From Tubulanus polymorphus (lineage: Eukaryota > Nemertea > Palaeonemertea > Tubulaniformes > Tubulanidae), in NCBI RefSeq assembly GCF_964204645.1, contig NC_134028.1, positions 4,562,501-4,626,500 of the forward strand: a DNA stretch of 64,000 nucleotides. Direction: 5' to 3'. This document shows, piece by piece, positions 5,301 to 61,912 of this stretch. The position numbers and the translations under genes are program-made. Within the stretch, counting starts at the first letter, position 1, and each line of letters begins with the position of its first letter. The notes below the pieces were generated by a model. That model ran no database searches. It saw nothing but the letters and a program-made list of their open reading frames with translations, and was not told the origin of the DNA.

Positions 5301-8300
5301 GAAAGCTTTCTATTTTTTATAAGCCTAATCCTTACGTATTGAATCTCCAAGGAAACTAATGGTGAGAGATTTAGGTATTTGAACTGCGGGGTGAAATTCG
5401 TGTCGTTGTATTACAGCTTGTGGAAGTGTTGAGGTTATAAAACACCTTATGAAAAGAAGTCCAGTGCGGGCGTCATGTGAATGTACAGTCGCTGATAAAA
5501 CCGGCAATACACCCGTACACGAGGCTGCTGCAGGCGGACATTCTAATACTATCAAATATTTCTGGGGAATCGGACTCGATATTTCAATGGAAAACAAGGT
5601 ATAATGAACATTGATATTATTAGATTATTCATGGACTCTAAAACCATGTATTATGAAGGAACGTTCTCGACTGTGTAATCGACAGCCAGGAGCCAAAATC
5701 TGTTAAAAACGGTTCATTTCTAAACTCAATTATAAATGGGGTCTTGGTCTTGTGAATATTTGATTATTATAGATTCCACGACTGTACACTTAAACCCGAA
5801 AATATTCCCATATTTTCTACAAACCTGTAAGCGCAATTTGAAATTTTGTTGTTAAGATAATACTTGACACAACGTACTATACAGAAGTGTCCTCTCTTGA
5901 AAATAGCATGTAATTTTTTGTTTATTCAAAAACCACCGTTAAAAACGATATAGTGAATCAGTTGACTATTGGGTCGAGGCATTATGTGTAATACCCAGTC
6001 AGCATTTGCTTGTCTCAAACTGAACTATTTGAATCTCGTTGTTTTCAGCTCGGAGAAACGCCGTATTCCATAGCCGTCATTTACGAGTATTTTTCGTGTG
6101 CTGAAATGATTAAAAGTCTTCTGCGAGCTCAGGGCAAAGAACCGCACGCGTTCAGCAGTAAAAATCGGCAGAAATTACTGGGCGACGATAAACGAAGGAG
6201 ATGGACTATCAACTCAACAGCTTCGAGTAAAAGGAGTCAGAAAATATATAATGTAAGTTACAAGAATCTGATACGTATTCAAATAAGCAATAATTTCATA
6301 ATATTCATAATTTCAATTAAATGGTAATAATTGATTCATAAATATAGTACAAAAATGAATCAATTACACTAATCAGGTATAAGAGTTATGTATAATTGTA
6401 AATTTGCCAACCTGTCCTATATAATGTTAAAGATGGTTGCTTCTACAAATTGCTTATGACGTGTTACCGATTACTAACAACTTGCTATTGACATAATGGA
6501 GTTTATAGAAGCAGTCATCTTTCTGAGGGTCTATTCTGAGGGTCTATACTGATCGGATTTTTGTTTCATACATTCAGAAATCTAAAGGGAAGAAATGGAA
6601 AACTGGCGGTCGTTCTGAGAACGACCGAGGCGAATTCAATCGGCGATTATCAGTTCCGGAAACTCCCGAACAGTCCGATTTCGATATTCTATCAGGTGAA
6701 TTGTATTTCCGACCGAACGATGAAGAAGTCGACGGCGCCACAAAATCATCGATCAAAGAATCCAAAAATGAAGCATACGGTATGCATCACTCAATAATAC
6801 TCATCGTTGTATCATTAAGGTGGCCACCTTTGATCATATGAGAATTGGGTTAGATAAATCAACACTTGACAAAAAAGCCAGTTGCTATGTAAACCATTTG
6901 CTCCAAGTCTTGTAGTACATCTCATTAAAATCGTGTTTGATTCAAGATGGCGGCTATCGTGTGAATCAAACCGCCATATTTTCACCCACGCACTTCTGAG
7001 TCGTTTCTCTGATCGTTCGGTTACAGGTCCATCGAAAACTCTGGCGCTGCAGCGTATCTTTCTACCTGTGAAGAACGGATCGTGAGTATGCAAATTACAT
7101 CCCTCATTATGTAAATTACAACGTCAGGTGACTGCATACGTCAGCCATGACGTCCAGAGAGACCCGCATTACCATTAGCAACCTTTCTATCTAAAAATAT
7201 CCTCATTATAATCTCCAATATCTACCATTTTTTAGATTTAGCCGATAGGTTTAATGGAATTGAAATCGTTTTGCAGGTTTTCATCGAAATCATTTGATTC
7301 GATACCCGAAGAGGACAATAAGGGTAGCGGTGGCGGGGGTGTCAGTGAGGATGAGAATGTCGGAGAATTCAAACTTCAAAGTTCGACCAGATTTTTAAGT
7401 AACGGGAACCGTAGCAAACTGAGCGACCCTTACAACGGAGAATCTCCGGTAGTTGAACGTATCCAAATCCATCAGAAATTTTCGTGTTCTCCATCGCCGG
7501 AATCAAAAGACGAATATCGTTCTAATGATACGACTTACGACTTTAGATCTCCGTTACTAGATCGAGCCAATTTCTTAGATATCGACTCTAATAAAGACTC
7601 GCGTCATTCGGACGTAAATCGAATATCTAATGTCGCACCATTTAGTAATTTATCAGACGATAGTTTGCATAATATACCGTCGACGGATTACGATGATTCC
7701 GACGGATCAAAAACTGCCAGTTACGATTTATTACCGGAAGAGAGTAGAAAAACTAATTCCGCCGAAAAGTTCGACCCGACCGCCGAGTTAGACGCGGTTC
7801 TAGAGCGAAGCGAAGCTGAATGCGTTCACAATAGTTTCTCTAGTAATCACATCGCTTCGAAAACCGTCCAGAGTAAATATTACTTCGAGGATTTCGACAT
7901 TTACGGTGGGAAAAGTAACAGTAAAAAGTATTATCAACAGCACGAACCGTCGGAACAGAACTACCCGCAAGAAAGAAGTAAAACAACTTTAGAAAAGGTG
8001 CCGCCTTCAAATGATCGTGGTAAACCGTCTGGTAAAGTGAGACTCCAAATATCTGACGATGGTTTGGATTTTTACGAACTCGTTCGGCGAAGCGACGATG
8101 ATAATCCAGTGTCTCGTCGTCACACGAAATCGGATATTCTAAATCGAAATGTTTCCGATCTTAGAGACAAGAAAACGAAAAAGTATCTATGGTCTGATCT
8201 TAGTGATAACGGATATGGATCTATATCGGAGTCGACAAAGATGGCCGCTTTACCATCGGTTTGTACCGTGTGCCGTGGTTCAGGAAAACCGGACTCAACG

Positions 8301-8750
8301 GTTTCAGTCGTTGATGACAATCATCACAACTCATCATTCGAATCTCAGTCGTCAGATGCAGACGGCAAGATTATCTCGTGTACGTTAGTAATAGACGGTC
8401 AGACGTACACTATGTCCGCCACTGATGACCCAAAAATAAAGAATCTCCACCCGGAAAATCGCTCTGCGAAAACGGGTGTTAGAAATAGTGTAAGTTTCAA
8501 TTTGGACAATGAGAACGTTTCGCGCAGATCGGTAGTTCCCTTGAAGCACGGGAACACTCGGACTCAACGACTTCGGTCAATAGATCGCGGAGATGCTCGT
8601 AAAATAGCGGCCTCAGATGAAGTCGATTCTGTTTTATCCTCCGCGGTGCAAACTCCCGATCTTTACATCCATTATACTATATACAAGCGAAATTCAGGTG
8701 CACGTGGCACTGGGGATAGTCAACCAGAGGTTGTTGAAGCAACTGTATGA
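2328..8750 (+). CDS. Ankyrin-repeat protein with long disordered C-terminal region
   Basis: Nine coding exons keep one frame and give 1024 aa: 2328-2683, 3559-3857, 4275-4343, 4754-4987, 5417-5598, 6049-6252, 6578-6779, 7027-7081, 7277-8750. After an acidic/polar N-terminus, roughly residues 75-430 form a run of ankyrin repeats, with repeated cores such as GNSPLHMAARMG, GQTCAHEAAQQGH, GMTVLHVAV, GQNVLHIAAA, TVIHYAAYHG, SCLHIAAYGG and NTPVHEAAAGGH. The last exon encodes about 490 Ser/Asp/Lys-rich residues of low predicted order, with one CxxC (TVCRGSG). Such proteins are usually cytoplasmic scaffolds. The N-terminal repeat order recalls synphilin-1, but I would not name it so. The stop lies 790 bp from the stop of the convergent dioxygenase gene A, and an AATAAA at about 9341 could end this transcript. 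The frame and splice signals are strong; function is unknown. Confidence 0.85.
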
Positions 8751-12500: not shown

Positions 12501-13031
12501 TTCATCGTGGTTACTACGATTCTGTAATTAAAGATCACAGATCACAGATTTTCGGACCGTCAGACTTAACGAAAACTAATTTGATTATTTGAAGATGTTC
12601 AGATTAACCCTTTTCTTTCTTACCTCGACATCTTTCGGTTCAATTTTCGTATCCAAATTTGACATCAGAACCAACCTGGATTTCGTCGTCGGGTGAAAAC
12701 ATTTCAAACATTGACAGTTATCTCTGAGCCATACGTACGGGTAACTTGTCACTGAATCATCATTCCACGTCACATCCACCCATCTCTTACCATCGTTTCT
12801 ATGCACGTCCACAACTCCTAAAACATCTTCTTTAACTTCCATGGAATGCAGTAACCGGTGCTGCGACCCCTGATGTTGAGTCCCATGCTGTTTAAATGTT
12901 CGCGCGTTAATATTATTGGTGCAATAAGTACCAACTCGGCTAACAGCCAATGGAGCAAGTTCCTTTTTTAGTATTGAAAAAATTCTAGGAATTTTATTTT
13001 TTGAAACGTTCAATCGTTTCAGGGCAAACAT
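9543..13031 (-). CDS. Gamma-butyrobetaine dioxygenase-like enzyme, copy A
   Basis: Seven exons (12624-13031, 11958-12146, 11402-11547, 11008-11113, 10659-10855, 10129-10295, 9543-9700) give 456 aa in one phase. Family enzymes are Fe(II)/2-oxoglutarate oxygenases that hydroxylate gamma-butyrobetaine to carnitine. The N-terminal domain has the zinc-site pattern WLRDNCQCLKC (Cys about 106/108/111) and WPDGH; the catalytic domain has the iron ligands HCD (about 272/274) and the distal His of VLHGR (about 417), followed by an Arg (about 430, RNLEGIF) in the 2OG-binding position. The start MFALKRLNVSKNK is basic and free of acids, so a mitochondrial presequence is likely, unlike the cytosolic vertebrate BBOX1. 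Motifs such as DVQPLYDALK and DWDEICSRIRVL fit BBOX1 better than TMLHE. A minus-strand AATAAA lies at 9411-9416. Substrate is inferred. Confidence 0.88.
10606..10653. repeat. Perfect 19-bp intronic inverted repeat
   Basis: CTACGAGCAATTATCTAAA at the left pairs perfectly with its reverse complement at the right across a 10-nt AT loop. It sits just after the splice donor of exon 5 of dioxygenase gene A. The copy in gene B (about 17671-17716) has the same hairpin with two arm changes. Confidence 0.85.
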
Positions 13032-13164
13032 GGTCACGATGAGTGGAGCGCCTTTCTGGAAAATCTGTCTGTCGTTGGACGGATAACGCGAGACTGGTTG
13101 ACTGAGTGGCTGACTGACTGTCGATCCCCAGTAGACTTTGACCTACATACGCCTTCAAACTGAT

Positions 13165-13641: not shown

Positions 13642-15816
13642 AAATCTAAAGGGAAGAAATGGAAAACTGGCGGTCGTTCTGAGGCGAATTCAATCGGCGA
13701 TTATCAGTTCCGGAAACTCCCGAACAGTCCGATTTCGATATTCTATCAGGTGAATTTTATTTCCGACCGAACGATGAAGAAGTCGACGGCTCCACAAAAT
13801 CATCGATCAAAGAATCCAAAAATGAAGCATACGGTATGCATCACTCAATAGTACTCATCGTTGTATCATTAAGGTGGCCACCTTGGATCATATGAGAATT
13901 GGGTTAGATAAATCAACTCTTGACAAGAAAGCCAGTTGCTTTGTAAACCATTTGCTCCAAGTCTTGTAGTACATCTCATTAAAATCGTGTTTGATTCAAG
14001 ATGGCGGCTATCGTGTGAATCAAACCGCCATATTTTCACCCACGCACTTCTGAGTCGTTTCCCTGATCGTTCGGTTACAGGTCCATCGAAAACTCTGGCG
14101 CTGCAGCGTATCTTTCTACCTGTGAAGAACGGATCGTGAGTATGCAAATTACATCCCTCATTATGTAAATTACAACGTCAGGTGACTGCATACGTCAGCC
14201 ATGACGTCCAGAGAGACCCGCATTACCATTAGCAACCTTTCTATCTAAAAATATCCTCATTATAATCTCCAATTTCTACCATTTTTTAGATTTAGCCGAT
14301 AGGTTTAATGGAATTGAAATCGTTTTGCAGGTTTTCATCGAAATCATTTGATTCGATACCCGAAGAGGCGATAAGGGTGGCGGTGGCGGGGGTGTCAGTG
14401 AGGATGAGAATGTCGGAGAATTCAAACTTCAAAGTTCGACCAGATTTTTAAGTAACGGGAACCGTAGCAAACTGAACGACCCTTACAACGGAGAATCTCC
14501 GGTAGTTGAACGTATCCAAATCCATCAGAAATTTTCGTGTTCTCCATCGCCGGAATCAAAAGACGAATATCGTTCTAATGATACGACTTACGACTTTAGA
14601 TCTCCGTTACTAGATCGAGCCAATTTCTTAGATATCGTCTCTAAAAAAAAATAAAAACAAAGACTCGCGTCATTCGGACGTAAATCGAATATCTAATGTC
14701 GCACCATTTAGTGATTTATCAGACGATAGTTTGCATAATATACCGTCGACGGATTACGATGATTCCGACGGATCAAAAACTGCCAGTTACGATCTATTAC
14801 CGGAAGAGAGCAGAAAAACTAATTCCGCCGAAAAGTTCGACCCGACCGCCGAGTTAGACGCGGTTCTAGAGCGAAGCGAAGCTGAATGCGTTCACAATAG
14901 TTTCTCTAGTAACCACATCGCTTCGAAAACCGTCCAGAGTAAATATTACTTCGAGGATTTCGACATTTACGGTGGGAAAAGTAACAGTAAAAAGTATCAT
15001 CAACAGCACGAACCGTCGGAACAGACCTACCCGCAAGACAGAAGTAAAACAACTTTAGAAAAGGTGCTGCCTTCAAATGATCGTGGTAAACCGTCTGGTA
15101 AAGTGAGACTCCAAATATCTGACGATGGTTTGGATTTTTACGAACTCGTTCGGCGAAGCGACGATGATAATCCAGTGTCTCGTCGTCACACGAAATCGGA
15201 TATTCTAAATCGAAATGTTTCCGATCTTAGAGACAAGAAAACGAAAAAGTATCTATGGTCTGATCTTAGTGATAACGGATATGGATCTATATCGGAGTCG
15301 ACAAAGATGGCCGCTTTACCATCGGTTTGTACCGTGTGCCGTGGTTCAGGAAAACCGGACTCAACGGTTTCAGTCGTTGATGACAATCATCACAACTCAT
15401 CATTCGAATCTCAGTCGTCAGATGCAGACGGCAAGATTATCTCGTGTACGTTAGTAATAGACGGTCAGACGTACACTATGTCCGCCACTGATGACCCAAA
15501 AATAAAGAATCTCCACCCGGAAAATCGCTCTGCGAAAACGGGTGTTAGAAATAGTGTAAGTTTCAATTTGGACAATGAGAAAGTTTCGCGTAGATCGGTA
15601 GTTCCCTTGAAGCACGGGAACACTCGGACTCAACGACTTCGGTCAATAGATCGCGGAGATGCTCGTAAAATAGCGGCCTCAGATGAAGTCGATTCTGTTT
15701 TATCCTCCGCGGTGCAAACTCCCGATCTTTACATCCATTATACTATATACAAGCGAAATTCAGGTGCACGTGGCACTGGGGATAGTCAACCAGAGGTTGT
15801 TGAAGCAACTGTATGA
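13642..15816 (+). pseudogene. Truncated duplicate of the ankyrin gene (last three exons)
   Basis: Only the counterparts of exons 7-9 were copied, so all ankyrin repeats are missing. The first copied exon lacks 10 bases relative to the parent (after GGTCGTTCTGAG), which shifts the frame. The last exon has lost one base near 14368 and gained 13 bases in an A-rich patch near 14645; the net change restores the frame, but a TAA falls between the two. From 14731 to the stop at 15816 the 361 codons are open and nearly identical to the parent. Splice sites look intact. An LTR end lies directly upstream and could drive transcription. I call it a pseudogene fragment. Confidence 0.82.
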
Positions 15817-19600: not shown

Positions 19601-20690
19601 TACGTTCAATGTGTGAGTGAATAATAAAGGTGCGTGAGAAAACGGATACTCAAAGTATAACGGATAAGAGCCATATTGGACAAAGGTAAACGGTCAACGT
19701 GAGAGATTTTGAACACACGACGTGAGACACAAACACATGTCAAAGTCTAAAGTTTAGTTTGAGAAAACCCTTCACCAGAATTTCGACCGAACATAGAATG
19801 GTTTAATTACTGCATATATTATCAATCTAGATTACAAAATGTCGCGTTAGTTATTGATCTTAAAGCAGGGATAACTGTCCCTCTCATATTTGATTGGTAA
19901 ATTCAACTTGATTTGGTGTCCCTTATACGATGATGCATATCTCCCACATAGTAAACTGGTGGACGGAAACCTGTGGAATTACAGAATATATCACCGAAAA
20001 ATCATGTAGTTAATTAATGGGCGTACAATGTTAATCGACAATTCTGCGCCACTTGATTTTGAACATAATGTGGTCAGGACATCTCTTAGAAATCATAATA
20101 TTTTGAATTTCAATTATTCAAAATTATTTCATTTATACTGAGTAAACGTGTAACCTTCCTTCATCGTGGTTACTACGATTCTGTAATTACAGATCACAGA
20201 TCACAGATTTTCGGACCGTCAGACTTAACGAAAACTAATTTGATTATTTGAAGATGTTCAGATTAACCCTTTTCTTTCTTACCTCGACATCTTTCGGTTC
20301 AATTTTCGTATCCAAATTTGACATCAGAACCAACCTGGATTTCGTCGTCGGGTGAAAACATTTCAAACATTGACAGTTATCTCTGAGCCATACGTACGGG
20401 TAACTTGTCACTGAATCATCATTCCACGTCACATCCACCCATCTCTTACCATCGTTTCTATGCACGTCCACAACTCCTAAAACATCTTCTTTAACTTCCA
20501 TGGAATGCAGTAACCGGTGCTGCGACCCCTGATGTTGAGTCCCATGCTGTTTAAATGTTCGCGCGTTAATATTATTGGTGCAATAAGTTCCGACTCGACT
20601 AACAGCCAATGGAGCAAGTTCCTTTTTTAGTATTGAAAAAATTCTAGGAATTTTATTTTTTGAAACGTTCAATCGTTTCAGGGCAAACAT
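16615..20690 (-). CDS. Gamma-butyrobetaine dioxygenase-like enzyme, copy B
   Basis: This is the duplicate of gene A with all seven exons (20283-20690, 19022-19210, 18466-18611, 18071-18176, 17723-17919, 17201-17367, 16615-16772) and the same phases. The zinc-site cysteines, HCD, VLHGR and the 2OG-binding Arg are kept, and I see no frameshift. Differences are few and mostly conservative (for example Arg to Lys before FHNIARW), so it should encode a working paralogue of about 456 aa. The frame is also open upstream of the chosen ATG at 20690, back to an ATG at 20858. I prefer 20690 because it matches gene A and opens a basic mitochondrial-type presequence; the longer start exists only where sequence unique to copy B begins. 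Confidence 0.86.
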
Positions 20691-20827
20691 GGTCACGATG
20701 AGTGGAGCGCCTTTCTGGAAAATCTGTCCGTCGTAAGACGGATAACGCGAGACTGATTGACTGAGTGGCTGACTGACTGTCGCAGACCCCAGTAGACTTT
20801 GACCTACATACGCCTTCAAACTGATAT

Positions 20828-22939
20828 TCAAACGGAAAAATACTAAGGTATTTTCCAAATTATGGCTAGAAATTCACAAACGGGTAAGTTTTCGCTAAAT
20901 GATTATTTAATCTTTATTTGCTTTTGTTACTGGTTCAGTTTATGTCTCGGATTAATAAGAAATATTTTGGATTTAGTTTTCAAGACAATAGTAAAAGGGA
21001 TAAGTTGTTTGGAAACCGAGACGACTCCGGGCTTGTTTCTTAACCAGGTTGAAAGAACATTAATTCTTGGGGCCTGGTGGGCGAATCAGCTAGGTCCCGA
21101 GGTTGGTCGTCGGCCCTCCCCAAATGTGGTGGCGTTGGTCACGAGAATAGTTCCTTGGAAACCAACTTTTGATAGTATACCGGGAGAACAACGGGGAAGA
21201 ACACACTCAAGAAATTAGGTAACAAAGATTTGTAAAAGGTGTCGATACGTAGGAAACACAACTAATAGAATAGTTGTGAGTATCTAGATTTCGGAATATA
21301 TACACATGAGTTGTTTATTTATTTTTGGTCTCGGGTCAAAATTCAATTTGTGCCGTTGTGCGGAGCTGAGGAAGGATACGCTCTCCCACGATATTTCGGT
21401 TCCTTCTTTGGATCGCATAACATTACGATCACGTGTTTACGATGACGTATAATTCATTTCTGTTCGAATACTTTACAATGATCAGATACAAATTGAAAAC
21501 GATATCTTCATTTCTTTTAATCACATTTATTTAGTGTATTTTTATGAGAAGCAGATGTTGTAAGTTAGAACATTCGTCGCGCATCATCGACGCTTTTGAA
21601 TGAGTCGAGTAGGAACCAAGGATTACGAAAGGAAGAAGCTATGATAATATTGGAAATGTACAAAACAACTCATCGGCATTAAGTTATATTCAAATCATTC
21701 GACGATACTTGTCAGTTCAATCGATCCAAATTGTTTTCAACTTCATAATCCGCTAAGCCATAACGATAGGAATACTTCTACTAGCCAGCGTAAATATGCA
21801 CCTGTGCTATATGAAGATCCCGCCATGAAAAAGTAGCATTTTCTAAGACGAGACCTTTTTCTTAAATATCACGTTATATTCATGCATCAGTTGATATAAT
21901 ACGATGATAAAATACCCACTACATACAGATTAACAGTTTTAAAATCGAGAATTTTTTCAATCAAAAAGACACGCCGTTTCGAGCTCACCCTAGAGATCAG
22001 CGTCAGGTGTGAAAATCGAAAGTAATGTTTAAAAATTCATTAAACCTGTTTTGATCTTATTAACTGTTCTCCGCGTTTGAGTTTAGTTATTCTACTATAT
22101 AATAGGATTAATGCCCACAAAAGAAATAATGTTTTACTTAAAAAAGACGACTGTCATATAGTGACAAGTATACATTTTAATAAACGATAGATTGAATACG
22201 GAATTATTATTGATATAAAGACTGTACATTTTTATAACCAGCATCAGCAAATATAATACTCCTTGTACAATGCTATTTGTACATAGCTGTATTCTTCACA
22301 AGTAAAAACATTGCGCGATGCTTTTTTATTTTTGTACAATAGTTTTATTTGTATAAGAATGTATGTATTCAGTTTTAAAGAATGACACCATTTATGATAA
22401 TTCTTAATGCTAATCATTACACGCAGCTAGAATAAAATGATTTCGTAATATAACAATATCGTGAAGATCGACTAGGATCAGATTGACCTTCACGCGCTAG
22501 TGGTTCACTGAAGTTCACGCGTCGGTGGTAAGTATGAAGTATCTAAACAAGCATCACCCGTGGCGTCAGAGGATATCATCGGCGAATCTTAGGCCATTTT
22601 GGCCACATGATTAAGTTTTGAATAAAGCAATTTTGTGTGAAATGAAATAATCTCTTAAGACGAACAGAATCATTCTAAACGAAACGTCAGTTCAACTATT
22701 TTTTAAACCATGATCGAGCCAATAACTACTTGCTCGGCAGCTATAGATAAAAAAGATTAAATATTTGATTGCGATTTCCAAAACCACCCGGCCGATCAAA
22801 ACAAAGGTAACATTTTTAGCCTTATCTTCAACATTGTGGGACTTCCACATGCACTTCATAAACTGTGCCTTGTATCAATTGATTTCTACGGGTTGTATTT
22901 GTAGGTCTAGGTTTATTCGTGCAGTTATTGTGTTTATTT
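20828..22939. other. Intergenic region between dioxygenase genes B and C
   Basis: I find no convincing exon. A 118-codon open frame at 20862-21218 has no recognisable domain. At 21925-22030, on the minus strand, lies a copy of the CACCTGACG...CTCGAAACGGC repeat motif shared with 30118 and 790 (see findings). The rest is AT-rich single-copy-looking sequence. Confidence 0.4.
21930..22030 (-). repeat. PLE-type tail repeat with hammerhead-like core
   Basis: Minus strand: CACAC-CTGACGC-TGATCTCTAGGGTGAGCTC-GAAAC-GGC-GTGTC, then ATTGAAAAAATTCTCGA. ACAC/GTGT pairs where the 30.1-kb copy uses AGAAC/GTTCT, so the pairing is kept while the sequence differs. Confidence 0.5.
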
Positions 22940-25900: not shown

Positions 25901-27532
25901 TAGTTCATAATGAGTCTCGTATTTCTAGTTATTGGATTACGAGTGTTATATTCACTACACATGCAGTATATACCTTACTGAAATCATACGTAGGTATTTT
26001 ATCTTGAAGTTCGGCTCCCCAGAATTTATGTTTTTGGCCATAAACTTCGTTTCTTTTTCTTCTAGCGGCGTCGGTGAAAGCTCTTTCGTGCAGCCATTCA
26101 CTAGGATACGGACTTTCGTGACCGTCGGGCCAGGTCACCTTCAAACTGCCATCATCTATCACCTGCAATTAAACAATTTTGACATCAGGGCGGATCTAGG
26201 AAAATTAGAAGGGGTCCAGAAGAAAAGGCACTTCTCGTATAGCAGCCATGTCAATTGCCACCGGCGGGTTCCATCTATCTAGGGTTAGGTATCATTGAAG
26301 AAATAAACCCGAAGAGATCCTATTTCAAAGAGGATGAGGTGACAAATTTATGGGATGGTAAGGGTCCAGACTCCCGAGAACACCCCCATAATCTGCCCCT
26401 GGAACCATGACACTGTGTAGCTGAATCTGTAGGTTAGGGTTTAGTTTTAGTTTTAGTCGCTTACCCCCGACGATTTGGTGAGAAACTATGCTTTCACGGG
26501 AGGTTGAAGCATCTTAGGTAATTTCTCTGTAATGTCTTGTATTATGGTAACATGCCTTGTTTTCGGGTATGACTGGTTTTTCTCACGATTTTGGTACATA
26601 CACTAATCACATACGCAAACACGCGTAATTATCATTTTGAAGGTTTCAGTTAATACGTGTGATTTTCCCCTACTAAATACATGCATAATTATATTGCCTA
26701 AGTGCGTAGTTTAGCTGATCATGTGCGAGGTCGCGATAAAATAAGGTAATAGTACATAATGATAACACAATCAACGACGATATAATATATAATATAATAC
26801 TATGCATCCGATAAACTCGGTATATGCATGGAAAATCACCACACAAGATTGTTCAGATTTCCTTATGAGCGATTTTCCATTTCTCTGTCGAACACAGAAC
26901 GATTCTCGACTCGACTCCAGCCAAGCCCTGGAGGCAGTTGTGGGCTTCCTTGATACACAAAATATTCAAGTGGTCACCTTTCTTCCTATCGTTTCTTATG
27001 TTAGTACATATTGACAAATCAGTCGATATATCTAAACTTATTTGTGCCTCTCATCCCTATGTATGTGATTGCTACAGTCTCTTCTTACCTGGACTTGTTT
27101 CGGTTCGATTTTCGGATCGAGATCCATCATCAGAACCTGTCTGGATTTCGTCGTCGGATGAAAACATTTCGAACATTGACAGTTATCTCTGAGCCATACG
27201 TACGGGTAACTTGTCACTGAATCATCATTCCACGTCACATCCACCCATCTCTTACCGACGTTCTTCTGCACGTCAGTTGCCCGTAACGGTTCAGCAGCGA
27301 GCTCCGGGTCATTCCTGGCTCGTGAATGCGTCAGACGCAATGATCCTCTCGGTTTCACTTCAGTTGATGATCGTAGAAAACCGTTTACGCAGCCAAGCGC
27401 TCGCGAACTGAGGGACGCAGGTTTCGCAGAACAGAAAGCCCGACTATGAAGCAGGGTGGGCCTCTCATAGCGGCAAATATTTGAACAAACACGAAATAGT
27501 AATTTCCGCGCAAAGAAATGCGAAGTACTCAT
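22940..27532 (-). CDS. Gamma-butyrobetaine dioxygenase-like enzyme, gene C
   Basis: The third, diverged member of the cluster. Coding exons are approximately 27089-27532, 25977-26164, 25249-25393, 24650-24755, 24147-24343, 23642-23808 and 22940-23107. Intron positions match genes A and B, so all three arose by tandem duplication. Zinc-site WLRDNCQCSKC, iron ligands HCD (in GLHCDLPFYY) and VLHGR, and RHLEGIYIDWD with the 2OG Arg are present. The N-terminus MSTSHFFARKLLFRVCS is again basic and mitochondrial-like but otherwise unlike A and B, while the first-exon core (KRWVDVTWNDDSVTSYPYVW) is almost identical, which hints at constraint or gene conversion. The product ends in NRTNSS. The role in carnitine synthesis is inferred from family membership. 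Confidence 0.86.
25568..25640 (+). repeat. tRNA-derived SINE-like fragment
   Basis: An intronic stretch of gene C has AGTGGTCTATGCGGC followed by GGGTTCGAATCC, a perfect pol III B box. No complete tRNA fold can be made, so a SINE remnant or tRNA pseudogene is the best reading. Confidence 0.4.
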
Positions 27533-30117
27533 TTTTTAACGTATGCAATGACTCCTGTGCACCTGAGAGTCACGATTACGTCTTATCAATGTAGTTTTAT
27601 ATGTATGCACCAAACGCCGCTCGCAACCGAGTTTTCGAGACGGTGAACTCATAGAAACGAATGAAAAACTGAAATACCTATAAGAGCAGAGATATTGACT
27701 CTTACAGTGTATGCATGTGCGTTGTTTTTATTCTGGAACTGCTACGATTATAACGCACGATATAGGCGGCTCTCTTCTCTACTGCGCAAATGGGAAATCG
27801 TTGTTCATAGCAATCCACGCGATTCCACGTCCCGGGAAACCATTCGCTATTCATTTAACTACTGTCGAACCTGGTTAGTACAGCTGTCCGTAGAAAAATG
27901 AAAAGTCATCGTACTAACCGACTTTCGTATATCAACCATTCAATAAAACCAATTTACGTAGTACCTTAACATAATAACATAACAGAAAACCCATAAGGAA
28001 GTTAATTTGGGTGTTGTCAGCACCACCACACAATAGATAGCTCTGACGACGCATAAATATTGCGGACGGGTTTAAAACTTTAAAAAAGTGGGAACTCATT
28101 AATTATGGACCATCGTACTACAAGCGAGTTTGTTTACTACAGAAATGAATGGGAGCTCGTAAATTTACATCGTACCGGGAATTTCGTACTGACGTGATCG
28201 TACTAAGCAAATATCTTTATCGGAAAATGTTATACGGCTAGCCGAGAATTCTTAAATTCAACGTATTACTGAGGTTTTCGTTGGAGCGCTAAAACGAAGT
28301 TCGACTGTATGATCATCAAGGCTACTTTAGTTATCAAACAAAAGAGGCAATCAACGAAATGGAGGCAAAAATGATCAAATAATCACACTTAGAGATTAAT
28401 TTGAATTCACTCAATTAGGCTGAAGACGGTGGTAGTAGAACTTCAATTACCACGCGTACGCCTCACCCGAGTGAATTCAAATGAGTGAATTGAAAATCAA
28501 TGTAGAATTTTTGAAATTATCAAAATGAAACTTTTGGTCGGCTCTGCTGATTCTTCAGGATGCAACGTGAAAGAGCGACGTCATTCCGAGATGCGTGGTA
28601 GCGACGGGGCTGAAAGTGAGTGAATTGATCTTACACCGCGTGGGGCATAAATATGAATGATTAATGAATGAAAAAAATAATTCAATAAATAGCATTTCGT
28701 ATTCATCTAAGGCAAGTCGCATTCCAGACAGTTATTATGTTTGCGGTGGCAACGGCTCCGTAATAGGGCTACAGTTCCGACGCGCTGTTTCATTGCACCC
28801 ACTTTACCGCAAATTGTGTGCTATTTAACGACAAATTCTAACCCAAAAGTGTGAATAAATACAACCTGTTCCAATTACAGAGATGGAAAAAAATCGGGTG
28901 TTTATTTTTTTTTCATCTTTTCTTAGTGTTTCTCGCGTTTAATCATGTTGGTTTTATTGAATCATAGCGATGCTAGTGGTGCTAATACATGGGCTTGAGT
29001 GGAATCTGTTGATAGGTCGCAGGGGTGGATCGCCCTCTCCCCTCTTTCATTTGAGAATCAAATTAAGCAATAATGATTTTTCAAATTTTTATGAAACGCT
29101 TTCAGCTAAAACTGTTGTATTTCAATTCTTGGTTATATCATATAAACACTGAACTCCGGTGATGAAATTACGACAAAAAATATTACAATACGAATTGAAG
29201 ATATTTAGGAGGAATCATTTTTTCAATTCACTTTTTTCTAAATTCCAATAACAGTTAGTTGTAATTATTCAACAGGTATATAATAGTCACTAAATTGACA
29301 GGTTACTCGGGCATTTGCTCGGCCGAGCATAATGAGGACTCTACGTTCGACTGTGGCAATAGAGGGTTCCACTTGTGGCAAGCGAGGATGCAGCGAGGAT
29401 CCACCACGTTCGCTAGTGTGCACTCAGACATCAACCTCTGGATTCTTCTCATATTCGATTAAAGTCTATCCATAATTTCTCAAATTCTTTGAATGTGATC
29501 AGTAAAAACCACCTTAAATATGAACCTTCAGATCATCTGAGTTTATCAAAATAAGTGATTTGCCTAATTTCTGACGAGGGAGGTTAAAAATCTAGATGAA
29601 AGTTCATTGAAAATGAACTAGATTTTGACGGGGTTGTCGCACTGTTACACACGCCATCTAGCGGGATAGCTGGTGGCACGAAGTCCTCATTGGAGAAGGT
29701 CGAAGGAGATATGGTCGGCCGAGTGAGGGGTTGAATTCACCCGTCCACTCGGCCGAGCTAACAGTATAGTACTTTTACTCGGCAATCATTCAACCTCGCT
29801 TAAAGTTCAGAAGGTCAATACAAACATTTTCATAGAATCGAGTCTCATTTTTAATCCGAGGTTTTCATGGGGCATATTGTTTCTTGCGCCCTTCCACGTG
29901 ACTACGCCATTATAGTTGACAAACACAATAACTGATTCACATAACACACAACAAGTTTGTAAATCCCCTCATTATATCTTTTTTTATGCATGGCACGTCA
30001 GCGGCACTGATGATCGGTAAAAAAACTACAAATACCGCTACAAGACTCCACAGGGAGGACCTCTGCTCAATAACACATTGTTCCAAATATCATTGTCCTA
30101 TATATCATACGCATTGA

Positions 30118-45900: not shown

Positions 45901-48900
45901 TTACTAATTCCCAGCACATTCAGCCGTACATATTTTGCTTTCAACACCCGCGAGAAATATGACGTGACAAGTTTTGAATTTTCGCTGTTCCCAGGAAATA
46001 TCTGCAATGGTAACAGGAAATAGTGCTGTTTTTCTACGTCTCAAAAACTGGGAATTTAAAGCTCTCAACTATAAATCTGAAAGTCAGGGCCCAGTTTCGG
46101 TGGTGACATGGCTTAGATTTATGACCGGTAGTAATAGGGGTAATGGGCTTTCATACCAAAGGTCGAAAGGTCGAGCCCGAGAAATTTTCCAAAATGTTAA
46201 AATAACAACAATTTCTACTTGAATTAGTCGTGAAACTCATGAAAATGAAAAATAAATTCTCACACGCTCGAATTTATTTTCCATTTTCTACTCACTAGAA
46301 GAAAGTGTGAGTAAAGTGTGAGTGAAATAGTTTATATTTTAAACATATTTCGAGTAAAAATATTTGTATGAGTTAGATTTTTAAACATTAAAAGTGTGAG
46401 TAAAGTGTGAGTGAAATAATTCATATTTAAAACAGTGAATATTTATATTTGAATGAGTTTTAATAAAAATTTTGTTATAAAAATGAAGAAAGAAGAAGAA
46501 GAACCCAACTTTAAAATCGAAATCAATGAAACCAATAAATCATTTTCACAGTTTTACATTAAAAATTATATTTCAGCAACAAATTTAGTGTCCGCAAGAC
46601 ATTATAAAATCGATAATATTACTATGATTAATCAAATATTATCAAATGAAACATATTTACTTACTGAACTAGTAGATACTTTTGATACTGGCGTTAAAAA
46701 TCCTAAAATATTCAATACAGTTTTAAATTTTAAAGGAACTTTAGATGAAAACATAATTAATATTCTTAAAACTCCTTTCAATGAAAGAAATGATGATTTA
46801 ATACTTTCTAAAGATTACAATGATTTGATTAACTTAAGAATTGAAAAAAGACAATTATATTATTTCAATTTTGATAATAAACAAATTATCTATAATGAAA
46901 ATTCATCAAATATTGGAATTCAATGTGAATTAGATAATGAAAAATCATTTAAAGATATTGCAGTTCAATGTAAATTAGATGATGAATTTAGAAAATTCAA
47001 TCCTAATGAAAAAGTGCATTGTTATTGCGGAGGTAAATATTTAAAATCACATAAATCAAAGCATTATGAAACAATTAAACATAAAAACTGGCGTAAAGAG
47101 TAACAATTCTACATTATAATTATTGAATTGAGTTAAATGATTTAAATATCTAATAGACTGTTAAAATGATAAATATTTTGACAGTTGAAATGATAAATTG
47201 TTTGACAGTTAAAATGATAAATTGTTTGACAGTTGAAATGATAAATATTTTGATAGTTAAAATGATAAATTGTTTGACAGTTGAAATGATAAATATTTTG
47301 ACAGTTGAAATGATAAATTGTTTGACAGTTAAAATGATAAATTGTTTAACAGTTAAAATGATAAATTGTTTGACAGTTGAAATGATAAATTGTTCGACTG
47401 TTGAAATGATAAGACAGTTGAAATGATAAATTGTTTAACAGTTGAAATGTTAAATTGTTTGACAGTTGAAATGATAAATTGTTTGACAGTTGAAATGATA
47501 AATTGTTCGACTGTTGAAATGATAAATTGTTTGACAGTTGAAATGATAAGACAGTTGAAAAGATAAATTGTTTGACAGTTGAAATGATAAATTATTCGAC
47601 AGTTGAAATGTTAAATTGTTTGACAGTTGAAAAGATAAATTGTTTGACAGTTGAAATGATAAATTATTCGACAGTTGAAATGATAAATTGTTCGACTGTT
47701 GAAATGATAAATTGTTTGGCCGTAAATTTAATTGTTATTTGATTTAATCATTTAAAAGTTTAATATTTTTAAAATGATTATAAAATATTTAATTAAAAAC
47801 TAGCAAATATTTTATAAACTGTTTAATTTTTCTCTTAAATAAATGGATGGTTTCATTCCAACTGGGAAAAGTGATTTGAAACATTATTTAGTTGCTGGAG
47901 GTTTAATATTGGCGGCATTATACTTTTACTATGAAAATATTTCAAAAGATTTGATGAATGAAAATAATAAATTGAGTAAAAAATTAAAGAAGTTAAATGG
48001 AAACAATCACAGAAATAGAAAGAATAAAAAAGTTAATTTAGAAAATGATTTAGAGGATTAAAACAGCATCTTTTAATTTCATATATTTTGACTATAAAAA
48101 TGAGTGAAAATATATTAAACTTATTACATCTAATATATAAAAATCAACAGAATATTAAATCAATTATTATGCTTACAGGTTTATTTTCATTCTCAGTTTA
48201 TACTATAAAACAGTTGTTAGAATTCTATGATTGCTGTAAAATTAGATACACTGAATTAATAGAAAATATGAATTATATTTCAGATAGATTGAATAATATT
48301 AAATGCTGTGAAATTTGTAATAAAAGATATAAAAATTTAAAGAGTTTAAAAACTCATAAATATATTCATGAACTTGATGAAAAATTATATGAATCAAAAT
48401 AAGAAATCGACTGTTAAATTAGCTGAAAATATAAAATATATTAGTTGAATTTTAGTAATCCTAAAATAAACGTTAATAAAAAAAAGGGGGTTGAGGTATC
48501 AATGTATTAGATACCCATACTAATGGATGAGTGGATGAATTGGATGAATTGGATGAATTGGATGAGTGGATGAATGGATGAGTGTAATAATATATAATTT
48601 ACATATGTTTTTTATTTTTAAAACAGTAAGAGTTTGATTTGAAGTTATTTTATCAATTTTATACTATATTTAAATATTATTTTGATAATATATATATATA
48701 TATTGTGTTAAATTTAATAAAGAATGAAAATATTATATTTATACTCGTACTATTCTTCCAATTTATGTGTTAAAAAGTAAAATATATATATTATTATACT
48801 CATCCACTCTTCCACTCATCCAATTCTTCCAACTCTTCCAACTCATCCACTCATCCATCAATATACAGTGAATTCTACCCTATTAGATACCCTAATACCA

Positions 48901-51900
48901 TGTATTAAATATGTATTAAATACGTATTGATGGTATTAAATACGTATTAATGGTATTGAATACATATTATGCTTTATTTCTGAAAATGAAGTAACAGAAG
49001 TAATTTATGTTTTAATTCATTCAAGTATGATATTGTAAATTCTTTACATTTGACTAGGATAATACAAGAGTGATATTAGTTAGTTGGCTTATTCAATAAG
49101 AGAAACAATGAAATAATACAAGAGTGATACTAACAGTTAAAGTTATTGAATTTCTTGTTAAATCTATTTGAATTCTAGTCAATTCTTGTTAACCAATAGC
49201 GCGAATAGAAATCGAATAGATTTGAATAAAAAAACAATAAGTTACATCAGTTAGAACCTTTATTATTTTTTAATTACTTCTGAGACTACAATTTCCCTAT
49301 GAATATAAATTTATAAAATAAAATCCTAATTCAAAATATTATAGAATTCACTGTATATTGATGGATGAGTGGATGAGTTGGATGAATTGGATGAATTGGA
49401 AGAGTGGATGAATGGATGAGTGTAATAATATATAATTTATATATGTTTTTTATTTTTAAAACAGTAAGAGTATAAATTTAATAAAGAATATAAATATTAT
49501 ATTTATACTCATACTATTCTTCCAATTTATGTGTTAAAAAGTATAATATATATATTATTACACTCATCCATTCATCCACTCTTCCAATTCATCCAATTCA
49601 TCCAACTCATCCACTCATCCATCAATATACAGTGAATTCTATAATATTTTGAATTAGGATTTTATTTTATAAATTTATATTCATAGGGAAATTGTAGTCT
49701 CAGAAGTAATTAAAAAATAATAAAGGTTCTAACTGATGTAACTTATTGTTTTTTTATTCAAATCTATTCGATTTCTATTCGCGCTATTGGTTAACAAGAA
49801 TTGACTAGAATTCAAATAGATTTAACAAGAAATTCAATAACTTTAACTGTTAGTATCACTCTTGTATTATTTCATTGTTTCTCTTATTGAATAAGCCAAC
49901 TAACTAATATCACTCTTGTATTATCCTAGTCAAATGTAAAGAATTTACAATATCATACTTGAATGAATTAAAACATAAATTACTTCTGTTACTTCATTTT
50001 CAGAAATAAAGCATAATATGTATTCAATACCATTAATACGTATTTAATACCATCAATACGTATTTAATACATATTTAATACATGGTATTAGGGTATCTAA
50101 TAGGGTAGAATTCACTGTATATTGATGGATGAGTGGATGAGTTGGAAGAGTTGGAAGAATTGGATGAGTGGAAGAGTGGATGAGTATAATAATATATATA
50201 TTTTACTTTTTAACACATAAATTGGAAGAATAGTATGAGTATAAATATAATATTTTCATTCTTTATTAAATTTAACACAATATATATATATATATATTAT
50301 CAAAATAATATTTAAATATAGTATAAAATTGATAAAATAACTTCAAATCAAACTCTTACTGTTTTAAAAATAAAAAAACATATGTAAATTATATATTATT
50401 ACACTCATCCATTCATCCACTCATCCAATTCATCCAATTCATCCACTCATCCATTAGTATGGGTATCTAATACATTGATACCTCAACCCCCTTTTTTTTA
50501 TTAACTTTTATTTTAGGATTACTAAAATTCAACTAATATATTTTATATTTTCAGCTAATTTAACAGTCGATTTCTTATTTTGATTCATATAATTTTTCAT
50601 CAAGTTCATGAATATATTTATGAGTTTTTAAACTCTTTAAATTTTTATATCTTTTATTACAAATTTCACAGCATTTAATATTATTCAATCTATCTGAAAT
50701 ATAATTCATATTTTCTATTAATTCAGTGTATCTAATTTTACAGCAATCATAGAATTCTAACAACTGTTTTATAGTATAAACTGAGAATGAAAATAAACCT
50801 GTAAGCATAATAATTGATTTAATATTCTGTTGATTTTTATATATTAGATGTAATAAGTTTAATATATTTTCACTCATTTTTATAGTCAAAATATATGAAA
50901 TTAAAAGATGCTGTTTTAATCCTCTAAATCATTTTCTAAATTAACTTTTTTATTCTTTCTATTTCTGTGATTGTTTCCATTTAACTTCTTTAATTTTTTA
51001 CTCAATTTATTATTTTCATTCATCAAATCTTTTGAAATATTTTCATAGTAAAAGTATAATGCCGCCAATATTAAACCTCCAGCAACTAAATAATGTTTCA
51101 AATCACTTTTCCCAGTTGGAATGAAACCATCCATTTATTTAAGAGAAAAATTAAACAGTTTATAAAATATTTGCTAGTTTTTAATTAAATATTTTATAAT
51201 CATTTTAAAAATATTAAACTTTTAAATGATTAAATCAAATAAAAATTAAATTTACGGCCACACAATTTATCATTTCAACAGTCGAACAATTTATCATTTC
51301 AACTGTCGAATAATTTATCATTTCAACTGTCAAACAATTTATCTTTTCAACTGTCAAACAATTTAACATTTCAACTGTCGAATAATTTATCATTTCAACT
51401 GTCAAACAATTTATCTTTTCAACTGTCTTATCATTTCAACTGTCAAACAATTTATCATTTCAACAGTCGAACAATTTATCATTTCAACTGTCAAACAATT
51501 TATCATTTCAACTGTCAAACAATTTAACATTTCAACTGTTAAACAATTTATCATTTCAACTGTCTTATCATTTCAACAGTCGAACAATTTATCATTTCAA
51601 CTGTCAAACAATTTATCATTTTAACTGTCAAACAATTTATCATTTTAACTGTCAAACAATTTATCATTTCAACTGTCAAAATATTTATCATTTCAACTGT
51701 CAAACAATTTATCATTTTAACTATCAAAATATTTATCATTTCAACTGTCAAACAATTTATCATTTTAACTGTCAAACAATTTATCATTTTAACTGTCAAA
51801 CAATTTATCATTTCAACTGTCAAAATATTTATCATTTTAACAGTCTATTAGATATTTAAATCATTTAACTCAATTCAATAATTATAATGTAGAATTGTTA

Positions 51901-54900
51901 CTCTTTACGCCAGTTTTTATGTTTAATTGTTTCATAATGCTCTGATTTATGTGATTTTAAATATTTACCTCCGCAATAACAATGCACTTTTTCATTAGGA
52001 TTGAATTTTCTAAATTCATCATCTAATTTACATTGAACTGCAATATCTTTAAATGATTTTTCATTATCTAATTCACATTGAATTCCAATATTTGATGAAT
52101 TTTCATTATAGATAATTTGTTTATTATCAAAATTGAAATAATATAATTGTCTTTTTTCAATTCTTAAGTTAATCAAATCATTGTAATCTTTAGAAAGTAT
52201 TAAATCATCATTTCTTTCATTGAAAGGAGTTTTAAGAATATTAATTATGTTTTCATCTAAAGTTCCTTTAAAATTTAAAACTGTATTGAATATTTTAGGA
52301 TTTTTAACGCCAGTATCAAAAGTATCTACTAGTTCAGTAAGTAAATATGTTTCATTTGATAATATTTGATTAATCATAGTAATATTATCGATTTTATAAT
52401 GTCTTGCGGACACTAAATTTGTTGCTGAAATATAATTTTTAATGTAAAACTGTGAAAATGATTTATTGGTTTCATTGATTTCGATTTTAAAGTTGGGTTC
52501 TTCTTCTTCTTTCTTCATTTTTATAACAAAATTTTTATTAAAACTCATTCAAATATAAATATTCACTGTTTTAAATATGAATTATTTCACTCACACTTTA
52601 CTCACACTTTTAATGTTTAAAAATCTAACTCATACAAATATTTTTACTCGAAATATGTTTAAAATATAAACTATTTCACTCACACTTTACTCACACTTTC
52701 TTCTAGTGAGTAGAAAATGGAAAATAAATTCGAGCGTGTGAGAATTTATTTTTCATTTTCATGAGTTTCACGACTAATTCAAGTAGAAATTGTTGTTATT
52801 TTAACATTTTGGAAAATTTCTCGGGCTCGACCTTTCGACCTTTGGTATGAAAGCCCATTACCCCTATTACTACCGGTCTAAAATCGACTTAGTTATATAG
52901 CCAATCTAAGAACTAATGACTATCAAGAAACTTAAAACTTAGGTCCCAAGATCCAAAACAAGTTCTGGACTTAATTCCCGACTGAGCGACTTGGTCCAGA
53001 GGTTATTTTCACCAAGAAAATTATGATAAGTTGATAATGTGGCAGCCCTCTCATTTTGTTTAAGGCAAATTGAATTCGAGCAAGACCGCAACTCACATCA
53101 TTCCCGTCGGCGAGATAGACTTGAGACCACGTGTCTCGATTTTTACTGACGGTAATATTCAATTTCGTTACAAATTTGTAGCCGTTATCGGTATTAAAGC
53201 CTTGAATCTGGAGACCTGTAAGGAATGAGGAATCATATCACTACAGCTGCATAGAACAATACCAAGTAACATGAAAAAATGCTATGTTATTTTCGTCTTC
53301 CTCAGCAGGGCTTTCCAACATCTACTCCCTGGAAGTTATGCTTCCATAAAGTAGTCTTGTTATTTCATGAAGTCTAGCATCATATTCAAATAAAAATGTG
53401 TAAGAATATTCATGCAATTAAAGTTTAACCAATTTATGAATATAGCTATGCATGAATAAAAACAAAATTCTGCGATCACCTACCGAAAACCTTCTCCTCA
53501 TTAGGAAACTGTATTTCTAGAAACGATGGAAGTTGATCAGAGTTTACGCACCAAGCACCCGCGTTATTTCCAAGTCTAGCCTTATGTGGCATCGAATTGG
53601 AATCATAGTTATCTGCAGTGATTAGGATATCTTCAATTCTACCATCTTCTACACCGAGAGGTCGAGAACATTCTAAAGAAATAATGAGAGAAGATATAAC
53701 TGAACTGAAATAAATCGCCATCATCGCCAATAATTTCTTGATTAATGGGCACAGATAATAGTTTTTGCCAGTCACAGCAACGAATCGAGATGAACTTGCT
53801 CGATTTTAAGGTTTTTCACTTACCTGTGTTTGGAACTTTACAGACAAAAGAAAGATCCGCAAAACACGATGTCGCTACGTAACCTTGCGTCACACTAAAT
53901 TTGATGCAGTCGTTATCAGATGGGGTCGTAGTCAATTGTGTAGCTGGGTGACCGTCTGAATTGTACCATTTCCTAACACCTCTGTCATATCGAAATCCTC
54001 CAACGAATTGGGCACCTTCCATACTGAAAATATTCAACGACAAAACCGTTTCTATCATGTCTACTACACCATATGTTCATTCAGAGAGTCTTATCCAAGA
54101 AACACGTCCCGCAGACGCACAACTTAATCGTATCCACATTCATTTACCCCAGATTCTTAACAATTTTAGTGGAAACTACACGACTGAAGTTGGAACTCAT
54201 CGAGACCTGCTGGATTCAATTAAAATGACGTCAATCCTTCAGTTTAGAAAGATGAGAAGAAATAGTATAAGGAAAAAATTTTTTTTTACAAAATCCTATT
54301 TTTTGTCGTCCAGTAAAAGAAAAAAACACGTGAAAACGCGTAAAATGTTCGAAGGATTTTTATAATTTAACTTACACCTTTTCCGTAAACATGATGTCAA
54401 TCTCGTAGTTCGAATGGGGATAGAATATGTGCGAATACGTCGAATATTCTTGACATAACCTTTCAGCGTCCGGGAAATTATTTCTCGCTTTGTGGTGTCC
54501 ATAACACATTCCATTTTGAGTTAACCAATATCTATCTCTTCCACTATATGATTTGATGTACGTCAGAGCACTAGTATAAGCTGGGCATTCTGTGTTGAAG
54601 TAGTTAGAGATTCAAGATTAGTTTTCACGCACTTTGTTATATGCGTTCTCTGTATAGGTGACGATATGTTTGAAACAAACTACTACAGTAACTTAATGCG
54701 ATCAAACTACGAAAAGGAGAATTTTCATATCCACGAGATTCCTCCTAAATTGCTCTAAACTACCCAGAGATGCATTGTGTTAGTGGGCCGTGATGCAGCT
54801 GCGCCTGTAACGGGTAATGCAGCTGCAACGAGTAATACAGCTGCAACGGGATGATGCAGCTGTAACGGGTGATACTCACTGATTGGATCGACGCATGCGT

Positions 54901-59474: not shown

Positions 59475-59864
59475 TACTGATCTGGCAACTGCAACGGCTC
59501 AGATGGTCACGTGATAAGCATTTTCAGAATGAATTTAAATTATTCTTATTTCGTTTCTAGATATTCGGTCCAGTCATCTGCCGCGCTGAATGAAGGCTTG
59601 GTTTGCGTTTGAAAATTGAATTTGAAAGTTTGTGTCAAGATACGAATAACGTTAACTATCGGTCAAAATTTGCACTACGTAGGCCTATATTCGGTCTCTG
59701 ATTGGCTGTAATTCCTGCGCTCAGTTCCATCGCGTAACAAATGCGCTTATGTCGGTTGCGATCGAAAGCAACTGTCCGCCTACCGTAGGCCGGAGTACAA
59801 CATGGGCAACTAGCCGGAAATAGAGTGATGCGTACGCGGGCACAGGTCTACGTGCTATCGAACT
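59475..59864. other. Unassigned intergenic stretch
   Basis: I see no gene; only a partial copy of the TIR sequence (CGCTTATGTCGGTTGCGAT) near 59745-59765. Confidence 0.4.
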
Positions 59865-61912
59865 ACACAACTTCAAAACATACAGAAACAAACTTAACTC
59901 AATCATTAGACTTTCCAAAAAACTTCACTACCAAAAATCCTTAAAAATGGCAAACGGCAACATAAAAGACACCTGGAAAATCCTGAGGGAAGTAATCGGG
60001 AAAACTAATAATAAACAAGACATTACACACTCATTCAAAATTAACAACATTAAGACTACCGACCCAATAAAAATTGCCAACTCTTTTAACAATCACTTCA
60101 ATCAAATTGGTGAACATCTAGCAAATGAACTTCCCTTGTCTCAAATGCCATCTCAACACTACCTGAACAATTTACCTAGATCCGACTCTAACTTCTTCCT
60201 CATGCCAGTGTGCGAAAAAGAAGTCATAGAAACTATAAATAATCTCAAAACAAAACACTCAAGTGGTCATGACAACATTTCCACATACACCCTACAGAGA
60301 ATCATCAACCACATATCATACCCTCTAACTTGCCTTTTAAATCAATCCTTCTAAATTCATTGACAAACACCTTTTTCCTAACCAATATGGTTTCCGACAC
60401 AGCCATTCAACCGAACATGCAATACTCGAACTCATAGACAGAATTTCTAACTCACTAAATAACCATGAAAGGACAATAGGCATTTTCCTGGACCTTTCGA
60501 AGGCTTTTGACACTCTTAACCACGATAAACTACTAGATAAACTTGAACATTACGGCATCCGAGGAATAGCAAGAGATTGGTTTTCCTCATATCTTTCTAA
60601 TCGTCAACAATACGTTTCGTACAAATCCTACAACACCTCTACACTATCCTCAAACATCGGTGTACCCCAGGGTTCCATCCTAGGTCCACTTCTCTTTCTA
60701 ATTTACATCAATGATATCTATGCCTCCACGGTAAACATGAAGTACATATTATTCGCTGACGATACAAATTGCATTGCTTCTCATACACACCTCAACACAC
60801 TCATACAGTATATTAATTATGACCTAAACATATTGAATGACTGGCTTATCGCTAATAAACTAACCCCTAATCTGAACAAAACTAAATATATCATATTTCA
60901 TAATTATCAGAGAAGACCATTCATAAACCACATACAACAAAGCAAAATAGGCAACTTTGAACTTGAAAGAGTAAAACAAATAGATTTCCTCGGCTTGACA
61001 ATACATGAAAATCTGAACTGGAAACACATATCGACAAAATACACAAGAAAATTTCACAAATTACTGGTATCATAAACAAAACTAAAAACATCCTAGACAC
61101 ACAAAATTTACTTTCTCTTTACTACACCTAGTCTATCCTCATTTGAACTATGGCTTGTTGGCTTGGGGCCACTCGCCTTATAATAAAAAATGCCTCCTAA
61201 TCCAAAAGAAGATTGTTCGAATAATCACCAACTCTAAGTACACTGCACACACAGACCCACCTTTTAAAAATCTTGAAATCCTCAAAATCAATGAAGTCCT
61301 CATCCTTAAAACTGCATTTTTTATTCAAAACGCCATCAAATCTTCACCTCATTACTTTTCTAATTACTTCACCGCGGAAAACTTATCTCCTTTAGTCAAC
61401 ATCAGAAAAAGCATATATTTAGACCACGCATATTCTTTATTTTCAAAACAAACACCGCCAACCCCGCATCAAAATTCACCTCAAAACATTCTTTCAAACA
61501 TCTGGCAAAAACTACCTTTTTCCAATGAAATCCTACAAACAAGCAAACAAAATTTAAAACGTAAACTCAGACCATATCTCACCTCCGCCTACAATGATAT
61601 CCATCAATGTAATAACCCTAATTGTTATAATTGCTCATTCTCCTGAACCCTCTAGCTTACTCATATAAACTCTCCTGAAATTATCAAAAATCATCAACTT
61701 TCATTTCCTTCCCCTTTATTTCTTCATTTCCCTTTCGTTTTTTTTTTCCCTGGGTGCTTGCGACAGCGGCCTAAAGGCTTTGCTTGGCCCACACTGAAAG
61801 CCACTGTTCTCTCTCGCTCTTTTTATAATTGTGCTTTGTTTAAAAAAATTGTAAATTTTATTGTTTGTTTTCTCTCAACCTGTGTACATAACTTGAACTT
61901 GAACTTGAACTA
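59865..61912 (+). mobile_element. Dead non-LTR retrotransposon (LINE, Jockey/CR1-type), 5' truncated
   Basis: The frame begins in the linker before the RT (YRNKLNSIIRLSKKLHY), continues through 59947-60354, and then breaks: the expected segment between LLNQSF and KFIDKHLF is missing (roughly 60 residues by comparison with the family), with a stop and frame change at 60354. The RT continues with GFRHSHSTEHA, FLDLSKAFDTLNH, GVPQGSILGPLLF and the catalytic FADD (about 60749). Frameshifts near 61060 and 61125 follow before the last part (NYGLLAWG ... CNNPNCYNCSFS, stop 61646). The 3' end has three ACTTGA units at 61892-61909, a tail style of Jockey/CR1-group elements. Inactive. Confidence 0.88.

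Follow-up and report, generated by a model that had tools for sequence, protein, structure and literature searches.

Foldback transposons such as FB and Galileo have very long inverted repeats and no transposase, and adenoviruses give rise to inverted-duplication defective genomes in which one genome end is duplicated in inverted orientation. The replication mode of Polintons has mostly been inferred from their polymerase. Polintons are described as carrying a DNA polymerase B (PolB) and an RVE integrase within 15-20 kb (PMC4028283), while vertebrate Mavericks have 6-bp duplications and AGT/ACT end motifs, the commonest being (AGT)2//(ACT)2 (PMC8097293). AAV snapback genomes occur as symmetric and asymmetric products, for which end joining has been proposed (PMC8235507). 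Palindromic Polintons were not found described in the open literature, among the listed titles and opening parts of abstracts and in passages of PMC8097293, PMC4028283, PMC6431247 (where the passages mention foldback in a different context only) and PMC8235507.

Structure of the palindromic element and its genes

The window, which is the whole 64-kb stretch of DNA analysed here, contains a palindromic element of 6,742 bp at 46130-52871. ACCGGT (6 bp) is found on either side and constitutes the target-site duplication (Table 1). Because the flanks are themselves near-palindromic around this target (GATTTATG-ACCGGT-CTAAAATC), the mirror appears to extend a few bases past the element. The arms, of 3.36 and 3.38 kb, match in inverted orientation over 46116-47412/51589-52885, 47156-48556/50421-51821 and 48688-49441/49542-50295 around a symmetry axis at about 49,491, and outside a 24-bp minisatellite their complementarity is 98-100%, far above chance expectation. 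They differ by 22 substitutions and 6 gap runs; 16 of the substitutions lie no more than about 190 nt from the centre, four in bin 47051-47800 (one of them in the tail of ORF1) and two elsewhere, with about three lying outside both the 24-bp array and the centre. A sequence-only reading had described a near-perfect, very AT-rich palindrome of about 6.76 kb at 46123..52878, with six inward-facing genes encoding the same three proteins in each arm and nothing resembling a transposase. The inverted arms are there, although the ends given for them take in the duplication, and the GC content of the element is 22.8% against 38.0% in the remaining window. The mirror itself needs qualifying, since the centre is an imperfect hairpin and the minisatellite is of unequal length in the two arms.

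Table 1. Features of the palindromic element, in window coordinates.
Feature	Position	Strand	Basis
Left target-site duplication ACCGGT	46124..46129	.	flank comparison
Left arm, starts AGTAATAGGGGTAATGGGCTTTCA	46130..49491	+	arm alignment, terminus
ORF1, 216 aa, C-terminal CxC...H...H zinc-finger-like motif (by eye)	46453..47103	+	
24-bp minisatellite, left arm, ~24 copies	47156..47718	+	
ORF2, 72 aa, single hydrophobic stretch (by eye)	47843..48061	+	
ORF3, 100 aa, weak sub-cut-off Pfam C2H2 zinc-finger match	48100..48402	+	
MITE-like insert, 361 bp; site empty in L009, L010, L037	48517..48877	+	
Palindrome centre, made up of a shorter copy of this MITE-like hairpin	49355..49641	.	ends approximate
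Right arm, mirror of left arm, inverse terminus at its end	49492..52871	-	arm alignment, terminus
Mirror copy of MITE-like insert, right arm	50106..50460	-	ends derived from arm coordinates
ORF3, second copy	50575..50877	-	
ORF2, second copy	50916..51134	-	
24-bp minisatellite, right arm, ~25 copies	51262..51845	-	
ORF1, second copy	51898..52548	-	
Right target-site duplication ACCGGT	52872..52877	.	flank comparison

Each arm does encode the same three inward-pointing ORFs, and a Pfam scan found no transposase domain among them. Against Pfam and PHROGs, all three ORFs gave weak matches only. Phage records contained no match to ORF1, which also had no relative in the protein database at E<=1e-3 and no solved structure found by sequence at E<=1; ORF3 had no match among viral contigs, and the single relative found for it lies on a 1,030-base contig.

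All-pair dN/dS was 0.31 for ORF1 (24 loci), 0.18 for ORF2 (19 loci) and 0.36 for ORF3 (20 loci), values affected by local indels that shift the frame in several copies, ORF2 being the worst affected, and to which selection on parent Polintons may contribute. Plain nucleotide divergence was 3.7%, 8.6% and 5.9% for ORF1, ORF2 and ORF3, respectively, versus 2.8% for a non-coding stretch, a figure that comes from 9 loci only and from locus sets that differ from those of the ORFs. We read ORF1-3 as probably being under constraint on the basis of dN/dS and not of nucleotide divergence, which in the ORFs is not below that of the non-coding stretch. Open copies of ORF1 are common, with more than half of the best 150 of 161 matches free of internal stops. 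In the copy L037, the frame at 3466-4038 (-) is a variant of ORF1 in which the N-terminal part differs strongly and the C-terminal zinc-finger-like end is similar, which suggests that modules may have been exchanged.

Elsewhere in the window, host genes appear to be present as local duplicates, in two sets of frames that are very similar by eye (7242-8750 and 14632-15816; 12585-13142, 20244-20873 and 27038-27535). Frames at 59824-61646 resemble, again by eye, a LINE-type reverse transcriptase. Rfam gave no match anywhere in the 64-kb window.

A multicopy family with Polinton-type ends

The element belongs to a multicopy family with dozens of mirror-image copies in the genome. Searches of the 268-Mb genome returned at least 240 matches to the DNA of a single arm and at least 161 matches to ORF1, both being lower bounds with scoring limited to the best candidates. 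Among the best 150 of the 161 ORF1 matches, neighbours within 10 kb formed 29 inward, no outward and one same-strand pair, such that 58/150 copies lie in inward pairs. Arm sequence was read in both orientations at 19 of 20 loci other than the window copy, and these 19 are either symmetric or have one arm partly deleted; L026 has one arm only. The right arm of L017 has diverged (92% over 1.35 kb).

Copies end in AGTAAT...ATTACT, the terminus being AGTAATAGGG with minor variants. An exact 6-bp target-site duplication flanks 15 of the 17 copies with both ends located (L012 and L019 have none; the scoring left out L023, L024, L026 and L028), whereas left and right flanks taken from different loci as a control matched over 6 bp in 0/272 pairs. 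A 24-base terminus pattern was found 718 + 720 times genome-wide and a control pattern 0 times. Many termini also have a second, inverted terminus copy about 165, 245, 355 or 385 bp inside (e.g., C1:14237008-14237413), and each such end could potentially fold into a hairpin.

One copy (L033/L034; C3:18761173-18777846, duplication GACGTT) is a 16.7-kb palindrome that contains two near-identical DIRS-like retroelements, one per arm and in mirrored orientation, the label being our own reading of a reverse transcriptase match. These inserts were considered as proof of arm copying and rejected, as their different arm positions indicate two independent insertions.

Terminus pairs about 13-22 kb apart number at least seven by eye among the matches listed, all on C1. 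The only one examined further, C1:14063817-14085649, delimits a 21.8-kb element with the same terminus as the palindromes, the 6-bp duplication TGCGGA, a PF03175 DNA polymerase B match and a 1687-aa polymerase frame. ORF1, ORF2 and ORF3 sit 0.6 kb inside its right end (79, 97 and 87% aa identity), and its order is ORF3, then inverted ORF3-ORF2 with a partial ORF1, then the polymerase. The piece L036 (C1:14080800-14085800) reads as a PolB-bearing Polinton with an internal inverted ORF2-ORF3 duplication between ORF1 and the polymerase. In L037, which has no terminus within the piece examined, the order is ORF1 (variant)-minisatellite-ORF2-ORF3-short hairpin-polymerase and the inverted copy is absent; either of these two arrangements could be the ancestral gene order. 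L043, a candidate link from ORF1 to PolB, has a terminus between the two and hence is probably two elements. The N-terminal part of the polymerase has at least 149 genome matches, with several open frames of 1686-1690 aa, and judging from such matches the Polinton load of the genome is rich.

The window copy has no polymerase, and it is classed as a derivative and not as a full Polinton because its 6,742 bp fall short of the 15-20 kb Polinton range. Since its termini and ORF1-3, as read directly, also occur in the PolB-bearing 21.8-kb element, the comparison supports a non-autonomous Polinton/Maverick derivative in which one Polinton end would have been duplicated in inverted orientation; its integrase is assumed to be that of Polintons, supplied in trans. 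An inverted duplication of one Polinton-like end had been among the proposals of the sequence-only reading, and it agrees with the termini, 6-bp duplications and ORF1-3 that the palindromes have in common with this element, which is also the kind of longer element sharing one arm that the reading had advised searching for. Ordinary host sequence duplicated in place, the outcome that it had set against its own proposals, is excluded by target duplications at scattered sites.

Fold points, arm similarity and the origin of the palindromes

Comparison of the copies indicates that there are at least three fold points, recurring at hairpins. One hairpin loop is common to the centres of L012, L016, L017, L019, L021 and L024; in the window copy, L009 and L010 the centre is occupied by a MITE-like hairpin that has inverted minisatellite ends; and L022 turns at another place, at a junction with a 3-nt overlap. 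Of five additional copies that have a short hairpin stem, four are palindromes with the second arm partly deleted (L038 is not), three of the four having a terminus within the examined piece and L042 running close to one. The short hairpin of L037 had been considered proof that a fold site was present ancestrally, a case weakened by these four similar copies, and this natural hairpin could itself be what is left of a palindrome.

Divergence between arms within a locus was 0-2.15% (16 loci with two ORF1 arms) and divergence between loci had a median of 3.7% and a minimum of 0.6% (802 pairs), such that the largest within-locus and the smallest between-locus values overlap. As computed by script, the nearest relative of an arm was its own partner in 14/16 loci; L021 is not mutual-nearest solely through a third ORF1 from a neighbouring element in the stretch, L028 is truly not mutual-nearest and L027 is a near tie. 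The MITE-like insert lies at mirrored positions in both arms of the window copy, its site is empty in the copies named in Table 1 and related pieces are found nearby in L011. L012 has about 390 bp of extra DNA, likewise at mirrored places, in an ungapped palindrome of 99.7%. Barring double insertion, the mirrored inserts are therefore older than the last arm-to-arm copying, and our reading is that the arms were probably copied one from the other. In L009, arm differences number 0 in nine 300-nt bins and then 21/283 and 14/43 at the centre. The four symmetric copies that were profiled (L009, L010, L012 and L016) all have differences that are sparse along the arms and piled up beside the centre, with no evident patchwork.

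We propose, with a probability of about 0.7, that snap-back copying during extrachromosomal linear replication of a Polinton, followed by integration, best explains the palindromes. While a linear Polinton replicates outside the chromosome, a nascent or displaced strand would turn back on itself, in many cases where a hairpin or a short inverted repeat lies internally beyond ORF3, and would be copied back to its own end, leaving the ORF1-ORF2-ORF3 end on both sides with identical termini. The Polinton integrase, acting in trans, would then insert the palindromic molecule and generate the 6-bp duplication. The arms could stay nearly identical because the palindromes would re-replicate via snap-back intermediates. 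Snap-back synthesis, the integrase with mobilisation in trans, and replication as palindromes are the parts that we infer; the many palindromes, their like arms and more than one fold point are seen directly in the genome. A snap-back form of a linear element had also been suggested by the sequence-only reading, and this conjectural mechanism, judged from integrated copies only, is the one that best fits the near-identical arms, the presence of more than one fold point and the occurrence of asymmetric copies alongside symmetric ones. By analogy with the AAV genomes, end joining is a further route to consider.

The main rival to snap-back copying holds that the palindromes formed rarely or once and spread as palindromes, with gene conversion in the chromosome keeping the arms alike. 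Copies with shared centres do look related, and a within-locus divergence of 0-2.2% against a between-locus median of 3.7% would be expected likewise. At least three fold points speak against a rare or single origin, and the four profiled copies, with differences by the centre and no evident patchwork, argue slightly against conversion; we consider this explanation unlikely. Clearly less probable still is an ancestral Polinton with 3.3-kb terminal inverted repeats and ORF1-3 at both ends, from which the palindromes would be simple internal deletions. Such repeats would, by reasoning, yield the same end product, but in the 21.8-kb PolB element (one element) ORF1 is found at the right end only, among the best 150 of 161 matches, and shared hairpin-loop centres are not expected from random deletion. 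A foldback/MITE family that depends for its movement on an unrelated cut-and-paste transposase, or a hitherto undescribed non-Polinton virus, would suit three ORFs without a transposase domain and an ORF1 without protein-database relatives at E<=1e-3, and is rendered highly improbable by the termini, 6-bp duplications and genes common to the PolB-bearing element. Inverted chimeric reads are an existing type of assembly artefact, yet the many copies, the end duplications matching in differing flanks and the incomplete identity of the arms leave such an origin almost no likelihood.

If snap-back copying is the origin, a more tentative extension, to which we give somewhat less than even odds, is that the palindromes form a self-perpetuating Polinton satellite lineage. 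Such a lineage would spread through snap-back linear forms, with three selected genes (needed in cis or exploiting the parent) and arms homogenised in every replication round. If this is true, its members would correspond, in endogenised form, to defective interfering genomes.

Comparison with known systems

The mirror-image copies may be a record of virus-like element copying. Snap-back products present as dozens of integrated, datable copies would record linear self-priming replication intermediates, as well as the formation of defective genomes and their ability to integrate and multiply. As in foldback elements, long inverted repeats fill most of the element and there is no transposase, but unlike FB and Galileo it has termini of Polinton type and three conserved ORFs in each arm. 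It differs from the inverted-duplication defective genomes of adenoviruses in being chromosomally fixed with target duplications. AAV snapback genomes resemble it in the inverted duplication of one end and in their symmetric and asymmetric forms (PMC8235507), whereas dozens of copies of the element, here read as integrated copies only, have become fixed in a host genome, with target duplications and a Polinton parent. Compared with Polintons/Mavericks, the element is 6.7 kb instead of 15-20 kb, lacks a polymerase and has one end doubled into a palindrome, and its end motif AGTAAT is similar but not identical to the commonest motif given for vertebrate Mavericks (PMC8097293). Its 6-bp duplications, AGT...ACT termini and inverted repeats are nevertheless those of Polintons/Mavericks, and its ORF1-3 and ends are common to a PolB element of the same genome.
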